Assembly (NCBI GenBank): GCA_951813575.1
Contig: OX638375.1
Span: 2,247,042-2,311,041 of the forward strand
Direction: 5' to 3'
Length of the DNA: 64,000 bases
Source: Candidatus Binatia bacterium
GTDB lineage: Bacteria > Desulfobacterota > Binatia > UBA9968 > JAJDTQ01
Position numbers and translations under genes: made by a program. Positions within the stretch are counted from its first letter, which is position 1; every line of letters begins with the position of its first letter. Shown one piece after another: positions 37,097-43,995 of this stretch. A model generated the notes under the pieces. It searched no databases, was not told where the DNA came from, and saw only the letters and a list, made by a program, of their open reading frames with translations.

Positions 37097-37894
37097 TCAT
37101 AGCGCAACCCCTTGGCGGGGCTGCTCGGATGCGGGCCGTACCAGGTTCCGGTGCTCGCGCATCCGGTAGCTGTTGCCGCGGATGTTGACGATGTGGCAGT
37201 GGTGCAGCAGCCGGTCAATGAGGGCTGCGGCCATGACCTCGTCACCGAGGACGCCGCCCCAGTCCTCAAAGCCCTTGTTGGAGGTGAGCACGGTGGAGGC
37301 ACGCTCGTGCCTGGCGTTGATGAGCTGGAAGAAGAGCACGGCGCCGTCCTGGCTGACGGGCAGGTAGCCGATCTCGTCCACCACGAGCAAAGCGGGATGG
37401 GTGAGGACCCGCAGCCGACGGGAGAGATCGCCGGCGGCCTTGGCGTCCATAAGCGATTCGATCAGTCCCGCCAGGGTACCGTAGTAGACGCGACGGCCGG
37501 ACTCGGCGGCGGCGACGGCCAGACTGATGGCCAGATGCGTTTTCCCGACTCCTGGCGGGCCGAGAAAAATGACGTTTTCGCGGCGCTCGAGGAAGCCGAG
37601 TTCATGGAGGCTCTCGATCTGCTCGCGCTTGATGCTGGGCTGGAAGGCGAAGTCGAACTGGCCCAGGGTCTTCACGGTCGGCAGCCGGGACGAGCGCATG
37701 GCGGTTTGGAGGCGACGGTTGTTGCGAAGCCTGATCTGGGCGTCCAACAACTGCTCGATGGCCTCGGCTGCGGTGGCCGCGCCGCTATCCGCTTGGGCGA
37801 GGATGCCATCCACGGCTTCCAGGGCACCGGGCATCTTGAGGTCTGCGAGCATCTCCCGCAGCCGGTCGCGCCGGTTGCCTGCCTCGGCCCTCAT
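37097..37894 (-). CDS. istB: IS21 helper ATPase IstB
   Basis: A 265-residue AAA+/DnaC-like ATPase from ATG 37894 that assists the IstA transposase in target selection and integration. Walker A is GPPGVGKTHLAISLA near residue 105. Walker B is LLVVDEIGYLPV, followed by SNKGFEDWGGVLGDEVMAAALIDRLLHH, the usual IstB C-terminal segment. The start overlaps the istA stop (ATGA), giving translational coupling. The much longer open frame upstream is a shadow of istA. Confidence 0.95.
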   Translation of the reverse strand: MRAEAGNRRDRLREMLADLKMPGALEAVDGILAQADSGAATAAEAIEQLLDAQIRLRNNRRLQTAMRSSRLPTVKTLGQFDFAFQPSIKREQIESLHELGFLERRENVIFLGPPGVGKTHLAISLAVAAAESGRRVYYGTLAGLIESLMDAKAAGDLSRRLRVLTHPALLVVDEIGYLPVSQDGAVLFFQLINARHERASTVLTSNKGFEDWGGVLGDEVMAAALIDRLLHHCHIVNIRGNSYRMREHRNLVRPASEQPRQGVAL

Positions 37895-38910
37895 GACACG
37901 GCCTCCGCATAGACGCTCAGCGGGCGGCGCTCGACGTCCACGGTAACGGGCAGGGGGCGCCGGGTCGGTTGGGGGAGCCTGGCGCCAAGGCGTCGGTACG
38001 GGCAGCTCGCCAAGGGCAGCAGCGCCTGTTGCTCGTCGCGCTCGAAGCGATCCACCGGACGCTCCCCGGTGGTGCCGTGCCGGCGCACGTTGGCGGTTCT
38101 CTCGAGCCACAAAAGCGCCTGCTCGTTGAGATCCTCGTCGTTGACGAACTCCCGGCCGTAGAAGAAGCTGTTGCGGATGTAACGGATCGGCCGCTCCACC
38201 TTGCCCTTGGTCTGTGCTCGGTAGGGCCGGCATGCCCGAGTCCGGAACCCCCAGTGCGCGGCGAACCGCAGGAAGTCCGCGTTCAGTACCAGTTGGCCCC
38301 CGCCCACGCGGCTGTCCGACAGCACCACCGAGCGCATCTGATCGAACAAGAGCTCCCGCGGTACCCCGCCGAACCACCCGAAGGCGCTCTCCAGGCCTTC
38401 GATCAGTACCGCCATCGTCTGTCGGCGGTAGAACCGCAGCCACAAGAGCCGCGAGTGGCTCAGAACCGCCACCAGCGCATGCCGCCGCCCCCAGGGAAGC
38501 GTGAACGTCGCAAAGTCCACCTGCCCCTGCCGCCCCGCTGGCGTCTCGAACCGCACCACCGCCTCCTCAGGCTCCCGCGGCCGCACCGCCCGAACGTAGC
38601 CCCTCACACGGACGTACCCGCCCGTGTAGCCTGCCGCCCGGACCTCGTCGTACAGCCGCTTCGCCGACAACCGGGGGAACTCCGCCAGTCGCGCATCGAT
38701 GATCCCCTTGTACCGGTCCAGCTTGTGCTCAACCGCAGGCCGCGGGCTGTACCGCGTCCCGCCTCCCTCAAGGTCCCGGTCCAACTGCCCCGTCTCGATC
38801 CACTCGTGGATCGTCCGGCGGCTCACCCCGAACCGCCGCGACAGCTCCGTCTTCGTTACACCTTGTTCCAGGTAGTGCCTGAGCAGCATCCTTGTCTCCC
38901 ATCCGTGCAT
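37891..38910 (-). CDS. istA: IS21 transposase IstA
   Basis: A 339-residue DDE transposase from ATG 38910 (MHGWETRMLLRHYLEQG). The N-terminal helix-turn-helix is VTKTELSRRFGVSRRTIHEWI. The catalytic core has the first Asp in GQVDFATF, the second in LLFDQMRSVV and the Glu in KGKVERPIRYIRNSF. The C-terminal domain is basic. An open frame continues upstream to 39003 through the terminal repeat, but the ATG at 38910 fits the family. Length is somewhat short compared with IS21 itself, but all motifs are intact. Confidence 0.95.
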   Translation of the reverse strand: MHGWETRMLLRHYLEQGVTKTELSRRFGVSRRTIHEWIETGQLDRDLEGGGTRYSPRPAVEHKLDRYKGIIDARLAEFPRLSAKRLYDEVRAAGYTGGYVRVRGYVRAVRPREPEEAVVRFETPAGRQGQVDFATFTLPWGRRHALVAVLSHSRLLWLRFYRRQTMAVLIEGLESAFGWFGGVPRELLFDQMRSVVLSDSRVGGGQLVLNADFLRFAAHWGFRTRACRPYRAQTKGKVERPIRYIRNSFFYGREFVNDEDLNEQALLWLERTANVRRHGTTGERPVDRFERDEQQALLPLASCPYRRLGARLPQPTRRPLPVTVDVERRPLSVYAEAVS

Positions 38911-38980
38911 CTGTGCTCCGCTCCGTTCCTGTTGGTCTTGCCAACAGCGTGGACCCGGGCACTTACACCGGCAATCAATG

Positions 38981-39030
38981 TGTGCAGTTTTCGGTTGCCA
39001 CAAATGGGAGATTTACAGTTGCCACCAACA
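38981..39030. repeat. IS21 right terminal repeat
   Basis: Fifty bases, starting TGTGCAGTTTTCGGTTGCC on the inside and ending CCACCAACA, the inverted partner of 36915-36964. One subrepeat is well conserved; the outer one is degenerate. Confidence 0.85.
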
Positions 39031-39504: not shown

Positions 39505-40419
39505 CTACGAGTACTGGGCGGCGCGGCGCTGCCTGAGGAATTCCCCGGCCGCGATGGGCGGATATTGCCGGGGATGGTCGGCGCTGTAACACGTGTCCAT
39601 GCAGCGTACCGTCGCCTCACTGTTGGGGTTGTAGAAGAACACGTTGGAGTAGCGGGACTGCTTCACGTCCGCGCCGGGCAATGCCACGCGGTGCTTCGGC
39701 GACCGGTAGATGCCGTTGGTCCAGCGCGACAGCAGGTCCGCCACGTTGACCGTGACTGTGCCCGGCACCACCGGCACGGTCAGCCAGCGGCCGTCCACAA
39801 AGGCCTCCAGTCCTTCCACCCCATCTTGAAAGACGAGGGTCACGGTGCCGTAGTCGGTATGGCTCCCGGCCCGCAACTGCCCGGCGCCGGGCCGATGCTC
39901 CACCGGCGGGTAGTGGAAGAAACGCGCCGTGCTGGCGTGGGGCGCGTGCTTGTCCACGAAGAAGTCCTCGGGTGCGTCCAGGGAGAGCGCCATGGCCTGG
40001 AGCAGCGCCGCGCACGCCCGCGCGCCGGCGTCGTGGAGGTCCAGGACCGTTTCCCGGAAACCGGCCACGGGGATGTGCCAGCGATCCAGCAGCGCCATAC
40101 TGGCCTGGTTCAGGCTGAAGGATTCCTTGAGGTCCCCCGGCTGTTGGGTGTCGAGGTGCTCGACGGCAACGCCGACGTAGCCCGAGATGACATCCAGTTC
40201 GGACCGGCCGATGGCTTCCTTGACCTCGCCGGGCAGGGCGAAGAACTCCCTGGCCTTGGCCGACACCCGTTCAAGCAGTCCTTCGGGCAACGGCAGGTTG
40301 GCGACGTTGAGAAAGCCGAACTCGCTGCAGGCCGCGCGAATCTCCGCGGCCACGCGGCGGCGCGCAGCCGCGGCGCCGTTCATGAACGGTTCGAAGTCTA
40401 TTTGGGGTATGACGCGCAC
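39505..40419 (-). CDS. 2-oxoglutarate/Fe(II)-dependent oxygenase (isopenicillin N synthase family)
   Basis: A 304-residue enzyme from GTG 40419 (VRVIPQIDFEPFMNG); the longer open frame upstream is a shadow of the next gene. The non-haem iron ligands are HTD in GSHTDYGTVTLVFQD and the distal His in YRSPKHRVALPG. The 2-oxoglutarate-binding RxS is in KQSRYSNVFFYNP. The N-terminal DIOX_N region (FLNVANLPLPEGLLERV) is typical. It oxidises an unknown small molecule. Its start overlaps by one base the stop (TAGTG) of the upstream thiol-disulphide oxidoreductase, so the two are coupled. Confidence 0.87.
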   Translation of the reverse strand: MRVIPQIDFEPFMNGAAAARRRVAAEIRAACSEFGFLNVANLPLPEGLLERVSAKAREFFALPGEVKEAIGRSELDVISGYVGVAVEHLDTQQPGDLKESFSLNQASMALLDRWHIPVAGFRETVLDLHDAGARACAALLQAMALSLDAPEDFFVDKHAPHASTARFFHYPPVEHRPGAGQLRAGSHTDYGTVTLVFQDGVEGLEAFVDGRWLTVPVVPGTVTVNVADLLSRWTNGIYRSPKHRVALPGADVKQSRYSNVFFYNPNSEATVRCMDTCYSADHPRQYPPIAAGEFLRQRRAAQYS

Positions 40420-41015
40420 TACTCGGCAGCCCCGAGCCGCGAGCTCGCCTCGGTGACGAGCCGCTCCAGTTGTTCGTAGGGCTCGGCGCCGACGATGGCC
40501 AGCCCCTCCGACAGGTAGGTGGGCACGGCGGTCACGCCGAGGGAGTAGCAGCGCTGCCAGTCGTCGTTGACGGCCTGCTGGAAGGTACGGTCCGCCAGCA
40601 CCTGGCGCGCCTCCTCCACCGGCAGCCCCGCCTCTTCCACCAGTTGGAGCAGCAGTTCCGGCTGGGCGATGTTCGCCGCGTCGACGAAGTACGCCCGGAA
40701 CACCGCGTCGTTGAAGGCATCTTCCCGGCCCTGGTCCTTGGCCCATTTCGCCAGCTCCTGGGCCGACCGGCTATTGTAGCTGAACTTCCGCTCGGTGAAC
40801 GGCAGGCCCTCCCGGGCCAGCATGGTATCCACCCGGCTCGGGCCGCTCATGTTCCGCGGCTTGCCGTCCGGCGGAGTCTCGGGATGCAACGGGAACTGGG
40901 TGTAGACAACGTTGAGATTGTAGTTATGTCGCAGTTTCTCAATACGCCCGGTACTGAGATAGCACCACGGTCAGACGAAATCCGAGAAGACCTCCAGGGT
41001 CACTTGATCGGCCAT
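40419..41015 (-). CDS. DsbA/FrnE-family thioredoxin-fold protein with predicted selenocysteine (UGA codon 15)
   Basis: Read through one in-frame TGA (40973-40971), the frame gives 198 residues starting MADQVTLEVFSDFV-U-PWCY. FrnE/DsbA relatives have DFVCPWCY here, so UGA sits exactly at the first, nucleophilic Cys of the CxxC redox site. The rest of the fold continues in frame: FPLHPETPPDG, a helical insertion, YSLGVTAVPTYL with the cis-Pro loop, and GAEPYEQLERLV. ATG 41015 has AAGGAG 6 bp upstream. A hairpin at 40958-40938 fits a bacterial SECIS. If UGA were a stop, only a 14-residue peptide and an orphan C-terminal frame would result. It is probably a Sec-dependent thiol oxidoreductase; no signal peptide, hence cytoplasmic. 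It is coupled to the downstream oxygenase. Confidence 0.85.
40938..40958 (-). promoter_or_regulatory. Predicted bacterial SECIS element
   Basis: On the minus strand an 8-bp stem, CUCAGUAC with GUAUUGAG (7 Watson-Crick pairs and one G-U), closes a 5-nt CGGGC loop. It starts 12 nt after the UGA, and the loop G is about 22 nt from it. This matches the known bSECIS layout: a short upper stem, a small loop with an early G, placed 16-37 nt after UGA. Confidence 0.78.
40971..40973 (-). other. In-frame UGA, predicted Sec codon
   Basis: Codon 15 of the DsbA/FrnE-like gene. It aligns with the first Cys of CPWC. Other genes in this window use UGA as an ordinary stop, so this is not a global code change. 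Confidence 0.82.
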
Positions 41016-41136
41016 CGGCATCTCCTTCCCTCGCGTTGGCAAGTGAGTCGCGAGGAGTCGCATGTTATCAGATTTACCTCGATAATTCCCACATAGCCCG
41101 GCGATTTTCACGTATAGTCGGCCCCAGGAAGGATCC

Positions 41137-42519
41137 ATGCCTGCCGAACCCCTGTCAGAGTCCATCGCGAGGTTCCTCCAGCGGGTGCGAAGCCGCGGGG
41201 TGCCCCGGCCGGTCCGGGAGACGGCCAAGGAGCATATACTCGATGGGTTCGCCGTCATGCTGGGCGGGGCGCCGGAGGAGGCAAGTCGAAGGATACGGGC
41301 GCACGTGGCCTCCATCGGCGGCCGGGGCGAGGCCCGCGTCATCGGGACCGCGCTGAAGGCCCCTTGCCAGATGGCGGCGCTGGCCAACGGGGTGCAGGGG
41401 CACGTGCTGGACTACGACGACGCGCAGCTCACCACCGCGGTCGGCCGGCCCTTCGGGCAGCAGGTCCATCCCACGGCGCCGGTGCTGGCGGCGGCCCTGG
41501 CGCTGGCGGAAAAGACCCGTGCGAGCGGCTCGGAACTGCTGGCGGCCTACGCGGCCGGCGTGGAGGTGGCCTGCCGGTTGGGCGACGCAGTGGAGCCGGG
41601 CCACTACATGGACGGCTTCCACCCCACCGGCACCTTGGGCGTGTTCGGCGCCGTTGCGGCCTGCGGCCATCTCTTGGGGCTCGACCGCAAGCGAACCGGG
41701 TGGGCACTGGGCATGGCCGGCGGGCTGAGCGCCGGCCTGCGCGCCAACCGGGGCACCATGGCCAAGGCGTTGAGCGCGGGCCGTGCGGCGGAGAACGGCG
41801 TGATGGCGGCCACGTTGGCGGCCAAGGGGTTCACCGCATCGGCCGGCGTCTTCGAGGATCCCATGGGGTTCTTCAGCGCCGCCTGCGGAAACCGTTACGA
41901 CCGCGAGCTAATTCGTTTCGGCAGTCCCTGGTTCCTGAGACAGCCGGGCATCGCCATCAAGCGCTACCCCTGCGCGGGCGTGATGCATCCGATGCTGGAT
42001 GCGCTGCTGGCGTTGCTGGAGCGCCGCCGGATCAGCGCGGACGCCGTGGACCGGTTGCGGGTCCGCCTGCATCCCGACGCCGCGCGGCCGCTGGTCTACG
42101 ACCGCCCCGAAAGCGGCCTGGAAGGAAAGTTCAGCCTGCCCTACACGGCCGCGGCGGCGCTGCTGGACCGCCAGGTTACCCCGGGACACTACACCGACGC
42201 CCGGGTGCGCGACCCGAAGATCCGGGCGCTGATGTCTCGGGTGGAACTGGCGCGGGACCCCGGATTGAGCCCGCCGGGCGGCCCCGGGGCGGCCGCCGGC
42301 GTGGAACTGGTTTTAACGGGCGGCCTTCGGTACTATGAAGCCGCGCCCGACCGGCCCGCCAGACGCCCGGGCCGCCCGGCGTTGGAGCAGAAGTTTCAAC
42401 AGTGCGCCAAGCATGCGCGCATCGGGAGAGGGAGCAGCCTCCGGAAGTTCGTGGACACGTTGTGGTCCCTGGAGAGCGTCGATTCCCTGGCCGCTTGGCT
42501 GCGTCTCTTGCGCCAGTGA
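41137..42519 (+). CDS. MmgE/PrpD-family protein
   Basis: A 460-residue protein of the 2-methylcitrate dehydratase-like (MmgE/PrpD) family. The helical N-terminal domain has VMLGGAPEEASRRIRAH, GHVLDYDDAQLT and GRPFGQQVHPTAPVLAAALALAE. The FHPTGTLGVFGAVAA segment and later IAIKRYPCAGVMHP are family signatures. AGGAAGGA precedes the ATG. Members dehydrate or isomerise small di- and tricarboxylates, and many are of unknown substrate. It is followed by a carboxyltransferase-like gene after 15 bp. Confidence 0.87.
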   Translation: MPAEPLSESIARFLQRVRSRGVPRPVRETAKEHILDGFAVMLGGAPEEASRRIRAHVASIGGRGEARVIGTALKAPCQMAALANGVQGHVLDYDDAQLTTAVGRPFGQQVHPTAPVLAAALALAEKTRASGSELLAAYAAGVEVACRLGDAVEPGHYMDGFHPTGTLGVFGAVAACGHLLGLDRKRTGWALGMAGGLSAGLRANRGTMAKALSAGRAAENGVMAATLAAKGFTASAGVFEDPMGFFSAACGNRYDRELIRFGSPWFLRQPGIAIKRYPCAGVMHPMLDALLALLERRRISADAVDRLRVRLHPDAARPLVYDRPESGLEGKFSLPYTAAAALLDRQVTPGHYTDARVRDPKIRALMSRVELARDPGLSPPGGPGAAAGVELVLTGGLRYYEAAPDRPARRPGRPALEQKFQQCAKHARIGRGSSLRKFVDTLWSLESVDSLAAWLRLLRQ

Positions 42520-42534
42520 TATGAACGGACGGAC

Positions 42535-43995
42535 ATGAGCGAGATACGTTTCATCGACACCACCCTGAGGGACGGACATTTGAGCCTTTGGGCCCTGCGA
42601 ATGCGCATCGGCCACATGCTCGGCGCCGCCCGGCAGATGGACCGTTGCGGCTTCGAGTCCATGGAGTTCTTCGGCTTCGCCAGCATCATCAAGCAGGTGC
42701 GGGAGTTGAAGGAGAATCCCTGGGACTGGGTGCGGCTGGGCGTGAAGCAGTTTTCCAGGACCCGGCTGCGCTATCACGGCGGCATCGGCTCCGGCTTCGA
42801 GCCCATTCCCCCGTGCATTCGCCGTCTGTTGCTGGAATGCGTCATCGCCCACGGCATTACTCTCACGCGCTCGTCCAACCCGTGGAACGACTACGGTGTG
42901 CTCGCCAAGGAGCTCGAGTTCCTGGGAAACAGGGGCATGGAGGTGGTGGGCAACATCATCTACTCGGTCTCGCCCAAGCACACCAACGAGTACTACGAGC
43001 GGAAGACCCGCGAACTGGCGGCGCTGCGTCCCTACCGGATCTGCTTCAAGGACGTGGGCGGGCTGCTGACGCCCGATCGCACCCGGGAGATGCTCCAACT
43101 CGTCATTGCCAACGTCGGCGACATCCCGCTGGAGTTCCACGCCCACTGCAACAACAGCCTCGCGCCCTTCAACTATGTTGAAGCCCTCAAACTGGGGGTC
43201 AAGACGCTCCACACCGCCATTCCGCCCCTTGCCAACGGCTCGTCGCAGCCCTCGATCTTCAACGTGGCGGCCAACGCCGAGGCCCTGGGGCTGACGCCGA
43301 TGGTGGACCTGGAGGCGGTGAGGCCGGTGGAGGAGCACTTCACCCGTGTCGCCCGGCAGGAGAACTTTCCCTTCGGCGCGCCCAGAGAATACGACTACGC
43401 CCAGTACCTGCACCAGGTGCCCGGGGGCATGATCTCCAACCTGCGCTTCCAGCTCGAGGCCGTGGGCATGGGCGACCGGCTGGAGGAAACCCTGGAGGAG
43501 GCCGGACGCGTGCGCGAGGAGTACGGCTATCCCATTATGGTGACGCCGCTGGCCCAGTTCGTGGGCACCCAGGCGGCGGTCAACGTCATGGCCGGGGAAC
43601 GCTACAAGGAGGTCACCGACCAGAGCATTCAGTATGCGTTGGGATATTGGGGCGAGGAGGGGGCGCGGCTCATGGACCCGGAGGTCAAGGACAAAGTTCT
43701 GAGCCGGCCCCGAGCCCGGGAATGGGAAAGCTGGACTTGGCCGGAGCCCTCCCTCGATGAAGTAAGGCGGAAGTTCGGCGGCCCGGGGGTCTCGGACGAG
43801 GAGCTGGTGATCCGGGTCATCGCAAGCCCCGATTCGGTGAAGGCCATGCTGGCGGCAGGCGCGCCGAGGGAATTCCTCGATGCCAACCGTCCGGTTTCGT
43901 CGCTGATGAAACAGCTCGCCGACGTCCGCAAGCTGCGGCAGGTCCATATCCAGCGGGACGGCCTCTCGTTGAAGCTGGAACATAGGGACGCCTGA
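42535..43995 (+). CDS. Carboxyltransferase-domain (pyruvate carboxylase/oxaloacetate decarboxylase alpha-like) protein
   Basis: A 486-residue TIM-barrel protein of the DRE-TIM/HMGL-like group. It opens IRFIDTTLRDGHLSLWALRM. In the barrel, ICFKDVGGLLTP holds the Lys equivalent to the carboxybiotin-reacting site, and EFHAHCNNSLAP is the metal-binding histidine motif (HxHCN instead of HxHDT). The C-terminal half resembles the conserved carboxyltransferase extension (YPIMVTPLAQFVGTQAAVNV). There is no biotinyl domain, so a biotin carrier or a non-biotin reaction would be needed. It sits between PrpD and TctB genes, suggesting organic-acid catabolism. Confidence 0.82.
   Translation: MSEIRFIDTTLRDGHLSLWALRMRIGHMLGAARQMDRCGFESMEFFGFASIIKQVRELKENPWDWVRLGVKQFSRTRLRYHGGIGSGFEPIPPCIRRLLLECVIAHGITLTRSSNPWNDYGVLAKELEFLGNRGMEVVGNIIYSVSPKHTNEYYERKTRELAALRPYRICFKDVGGLLTPDRTREMLQLVIANVGDIPLEFHAHCNNSLAPFNYVEALKLGVKTLHTAIPPLANGSSQPSIFNVAANAEALGLTPMVDLEAVRPVEEHFTRVARQENFPFGAPREYDYAQYLHQVPGGMISNLRFQLEAVGMGDRLEETLEEAGRVREEYGYPIMVTPLAQFVGTQAAVNVMAGERYKEVTDQSIQYALGYWGEEGARLMDPEVKDKVLSRPRAREWESWTWPEPSLDEVRRKFGGPGVSDEELVIRVIASPDSVKAMLAAGAPREFLDANRPVSSLMKQLADVRKLRQVHIQRDGLSLKLEHRDA

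Follow-up and report, generated by a model that had tools for sequence, protein, structure and literature searches.

A conserved in-frame UGA and a covarying bSECIS hairpin predict an FrnE/DsbA-family selenoprotein in a Candidatus Binatia bacterium

DsbA-like proteins carrying selenocysteine (Sec) in a UxxC motif (PF01323/COG2761) have been known since 2005 (PMC1088965, PMC2398784, PMC13188914). Published sets comprise nine COG2761 sequences from the Sargasso Sea in 2005, four sequences in 2006, and GOS DsbA 1-3, and the type is included in a 2026 review. By description, DsbA-like selenoprotein form 1 shares with the gene reported here the PF01323 domain, a UxxC motif with Sec as the nucleophile, and a downstream bSECIS element (PMC1088965, PMC2398784, PMC13188914); the present lineage is distinguished by a fixed CGGGC-loop element. 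FrnE of Deinococcus radiodurans (drFrnE) has been described as a cytoplasmic disulfide reductase, the loss of which sensitizes cells to cadmium and diamide, and its C-terminal CXXXXC motif has been proposed to regenerate it (PMC8945050). The gene that we describe is a new example of the already known DsbA-like UxxC type of selenoprotein. It lies in the window, by which we mean the whole stretch of 64,000 nucleotides that was analyzed, with the following features.

41021-41030, minus strand: Shine-Dalgarno region GGGAAGGAGA preceding the ATG at 41015, purine-rich and conserved in orthologues
40419-41015, minus strand: predicted selenoprotein coding sequence, from ATG 41015 to TAG 40421-40419, 198 residues, with predicted Sec at residue 15 (UPWC)
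40971-40973, minus strand: in-frame TGA, the predicted Sec codon, at residue 15, the nucleophile position of CxxC
40937-40959, minus strand: putative bSECIS hairpin with a 9-bp stem and a CGGGC loop (40946-40950), 20 nt past the UGA
39505-40419, minus strand: downstream 2OG-Fe(II) oxygenase gene, the GTG start of which overlaps the selenoprotein stop (TAGTG)

In the frame 40419-41015, TGA is codon 15 and stands in place of the first Cys codon of a CPWC motif; with TGA read as Sec, the translation is MADQVTLEVFSDFV-U-PWCYLSTGRIEK..., 198 residues. An earlier, sequence-only reading had proposed a start at ATG 41015 behind a Shine-Dalgarno sequence and a TGA at the CxxC nucleophile, and this layout was recovered in full at 41015, 40973-40971, and 40421-40419. 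The motif AAGGAG lies six bases 5' of ATG 41015 and is conserved in close relatives; a second in-frame ATG (41021-41019), two codons 5' of ATG 41015, was not conserved in the orthologue comparison. The expectation that standard gene calling would truncate the gene was borne out by the standard ORF list, which holds only a 156-aa C-terminal ORF (40419-40889) starting past the active site. The similarity to FrnE/DsbA claimed for both sides of the TGA also holds, as the Pfam DSBA (PF01323) match covers residues 6-185 across the UGA (E 2.1e-33; 116 bits against a gathering score of 25.6).

A search of 193 genomes, the own genome and related ones, yielded 29 orthologues that were read at the TGA site, with identities of ~45-99%. 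Codon 15 was TGA in 29/29 and Cys in 0/29. Since 28 further genomes, each assembled separately, show the same TGA in orthologues with as little as 45-47% identity, a sequencing error hiding TGC or TGT at 40973-40971 can be dismissed. In the wider superfamily, another ~30 homologues with TGA, including 28 distant ones, line up with 87 Cys homologues at one codon, which is TGC or TGT in all 87; this set was partly chosen for TGA, so that the alignment to a single codon is meaningful and the proportions of TGA and Cys are not. A contig scan with peptide patterns containing Cys had yielded mostly Cys homologues, and the TGA-bearing sequences were drawn from the genome search. The Cys/Sec exchange anticipated at residue 15 is seen in this alignment, and the unrelated stop codons that would have spoken against the selenoprotein reading did not appear: throughout the homologue set retrieved, the site was TGA, TGC, or TGT. 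A search of the own genome found no Cys copy of the gene.

Downstream of the UGA, the sequence UCUCAGUAC-CGGGC-GUAUUGAGA is predicted to fold into a hairpin with nine base pairs, a 5-nt loop, and a minimum free energy (MFE) of -11.7 to -13.9 kcal/mol in silico. The sequence-only reading had described a bSECIS-like hairpin with this loop and an 8-bp stem; the hairpin and its loop stand, and the stem length is corrected to 9 bp. According to the published bSECIS model, the loop has 3-9 nt with a G within its first two positions, the stem 4-16 bp, the spacing is 16-37 nt, and the MFE is at most -7.5 (PMC13188914). The hairpin falls within all of these limits, the G being at loop position 2 and the spacing 20 nt. 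Taken by itself it is unremarkable: it is not beyond chance, and its folding energy is not exceptional. Bacterial SECIS-like stems of at least nine contiguous pairs follow 45 of the 1489 TGAs in the window (~3%), and stems of at least eight pairs follow 102 of 1489. We therefore rejected thermodynamic stability and stem length as stand-alone evidence, given that 3-7% of the TGAs in the window do equally well. An Rfam scan of the window gave no match at gathering scores.

The support for the putative element is comparative and evolutionary, not thermodynamic. Within the hairpin, codons 20-25 show 100% synonymous identity in all same-amino-acid orthologue pairs, against 26-46% expected from codon usage; because this coincides with a TGA in every orthologue, the hairpin is more than a chance fold. 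Synonymous identity over codons 19-27 is 90% (41% expected), as opposed to 48%, near expectation, in the remainder of the gene. Across orthologues, 90.8% of the cells of the named stem are paired, and 19 cells are changed on both sides compared to 5.4 in shuffles; shifting one side of the stem against the other by 1-3 columns lowers the paired cells from 91% to 26-49%. Covariation includes A-U to G-C in nine sequences and U-A to C-G in eight. One clade has a U-U mismatch for the central G-U pair, leaving a stem of ~7 pairs with an internal mismatch that fails the strict contiguous-stem scan, and in this clade Ser21/Ile25 have switched jointly to Val21/Val25, tracking the stem pairing. Neither the CGGGC-loop hairpin nor its ACC-GGG-CGT core is present in the Cys homologues retrieved.

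The own genome, a single contig of 4.21 Mb, encodes selA, selB, selD, and tRNA-Sec, the machinery by which the sequence-only reading had proposed to judge the prediction.

2675632-2679699: selA-selB-selD cluster, with matches of 517 bits (selA), 76 bits (selB wing), and 374 bits (selD)
2675632-2676558: selD with an in-frame Sec UGA, reading KAAG-U-AAKLG (KAAGUAAKLG), adjoining selB and selA
4075269-4075359: tRNA-Sec with anticodon TCA, i.e. UCA (73 bits)

The own SelD is thus a Sec-SelD, which provides an independent Sec UGA in the same genome. A SelB-wing match is missing in 5 of the 29 genomes with a UGA orthologue; SelB fragments are visible in some of them, and 4 of the 5 hold SelA and/or tRNA-Sec. 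One genome, G010 (240 contigs, 100% estimated completeness), had no match over the cut-off for selA, selB, or tRNA-Sec, despite an orthologue (locus L019) that has kept both the UGA codon and a perfect hairpin. This gap is best, if not conclusively, explained by missing contigs; a recent loss of the Sec trait is a possible alternative.

Based on these comparisons, the UGA at 40971-40973 almost certainly encodes Sec at the active site. We put the probability at roughly 95% that the gene encodes a Sec-containing thiol/disulfide oxidoreductase of the FrnE/DsbA family, probably cytosolic, with Sec15 inserted by means of SelB and the hairpin. A stop codon in frame would ordinarily be taken at face value, and the truncated ORF in the list is what a true stop in a pseudogene, or a sequencing error, would give. 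Against this, 29 genomes have the TGA in common, the sequence on either side of it is under coding constraint, and synonymous drift is absent around the hairpin; decay would have produced mixed stops and frameshifts, and we consider this explanation very improbable. It is just as improbable that a standard amino acid is inserted at the UGA, be it Trp by near-cognate read-through or Cys loaded on tRNA-Sec. Both have precedents in other organisms, but the homologues carry Cys and not Trp at the site, the hairpin is conserved, and SelA and SelD are intact, SelD with its own Sec UGA. Moreover, several close orthologues (L011-L017) use TGA as the true stop of the same gene, indicating that the genetic code has undergone no global change.

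The UGAs of bacterial selenoprotein genes are partly terminating, and some short product is therefore expected here as well. It could accordingly be proposed that the UGA ends a regulatory short ORF, with the 14-residue peptide or the hairpin controlling a separate downstream ORF. Yet the DsbA homology runs continuously through the TGA and includes the N-terminal strand and the UPWC motif, and a protein begun after the UGA would be without its first strand and active site, so that we give this possibility hardly any credence. Under the selenoprotein reading, SelB with Sec-tRNA-Sec (UCA) would bind the hairpin just 3' of the UGA and make the ribosome insert Sec at residue 15, placing a Sec-Pro-Trp-Cys active site where helix 1 begins. 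Sec15 would then attack the substrate disulfide, and Cys18 would resolve the mixed selenylsulfide. An invariant Val-Pro at residues 164-165, before the third strand, sits where FrnE/DsbA proteins carry the cis-proline loop.

An AlphaFold model of the protein (pLDDT 93) has its best PDB matches in D. radiodurans FrnE and Streptomyces coelicolor SCO1869 (E ~1e-14 to 1e-13), and phmmer agrees with FrnE at the sequence level (E ~1e-18 to 1e-20 for drFrnE DR_0659 and SCO1869). Read by eye, the N-terminus MADQVTLEVFSD has no apparent signal peptide or lipoprotein signal. The protein shares with DR_0659 and SCO1869 the fold, a CPWC-type site, and this lack of an apparent signal peptide; nearest solved relatives that are FrnE proteins, a CP(W/F)C-type site, and no signal peptide by eye place it in the FrnE subfamily. 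We take COG2761 to be the FrnE group. The model thus suggests an FrnE/DsbA-type thioredoxin fold in a probably cytosolic protein, the function of which we infer to be that of a Sec-dependent thiol/disulfide oxidoreductase. By analogy with D. radiodurans FrnE, it may work in the direction of a reductase or isomerase. It differs from drFrnE in having Sec for Cys, in its length of 198 aa, and in lacking the C-terminal CXXXXC, which is absent from the translation. Many FrnE proteins have this motif, but it is not an FrnE requirement, and it is missing also from D. maricopensis and S. roseofulvus FrnE (PMC8945050). The Rcas_1661 family, or DsbG-like selenolipoprotein (NF041057), likewise has a thioredoxin-like fold and Sec members; membership was rejected, the score of 26.9 bits falling short of the 190-bit cut-off and no lipoprotein signal being apparent.

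On a tree of 146 rows, the distribution of Sec and Cys requires 10 changes, compared to ~46 for shuffled labels, and 7 of the 10 are forced by well-supported branches, the individual events being uncertain on a tree with long branches. From this tree, the superfamily has switched between predicted Sec and Cys at least seven times, the state being stable within clades and repeatedly exchanged among them. Several distant DsbA-type subfamilies of the same phylum (L129, L133-L159) likewise carry TGA where the nucleophile is encoded (UPWC, UPFC, UPYC), with hairpins unlike the CGGGC type. We moderately favor a broader proposal: that this phylum and its relatives have in the DsbA/FrnE superfamily a hotspot of repeated Sec/Cys exchange, and that the bSECIS constrains the protein, the Thr-Gly-Arg turn and the Ser21/Ile25 or Val21/Val25 pairs existing for the hairpin. 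If true, this would offer a model for an RNA element within a coding region that shapes an enzyme sequence.

The corrected gene reading replaces what standard ORF calling leaves as a headless fragment across an order of mostly uncultured bacteria. FrnE-type selenoenzymes would gain a large clade that is well conserved, and the comparison demonstrates a bSECIS cleanly. The protein reaches the cut-off of no NCBIfam model, and automatic annotation may well go on missing the gene.

The overlap of the oxygenase GTG with the selenoprotein stop suggests that the two genes are likely co-transcribed. This neighborhood was detected only within the genus, and an operon-based assignment of function was dropped for that reason. 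Downstream of the oxygenase gene (37097-39003, minus strand), adjacent ORFs resemble, from their translations read by eye, the IstB and IstA proteins of an IS21-family element. In the divergent direction (41137-43995, plus strand) lie an MmgE/PrpD family gene and then a gene whose product combines HMGL-like and PYC_OADA carboxylase domains.
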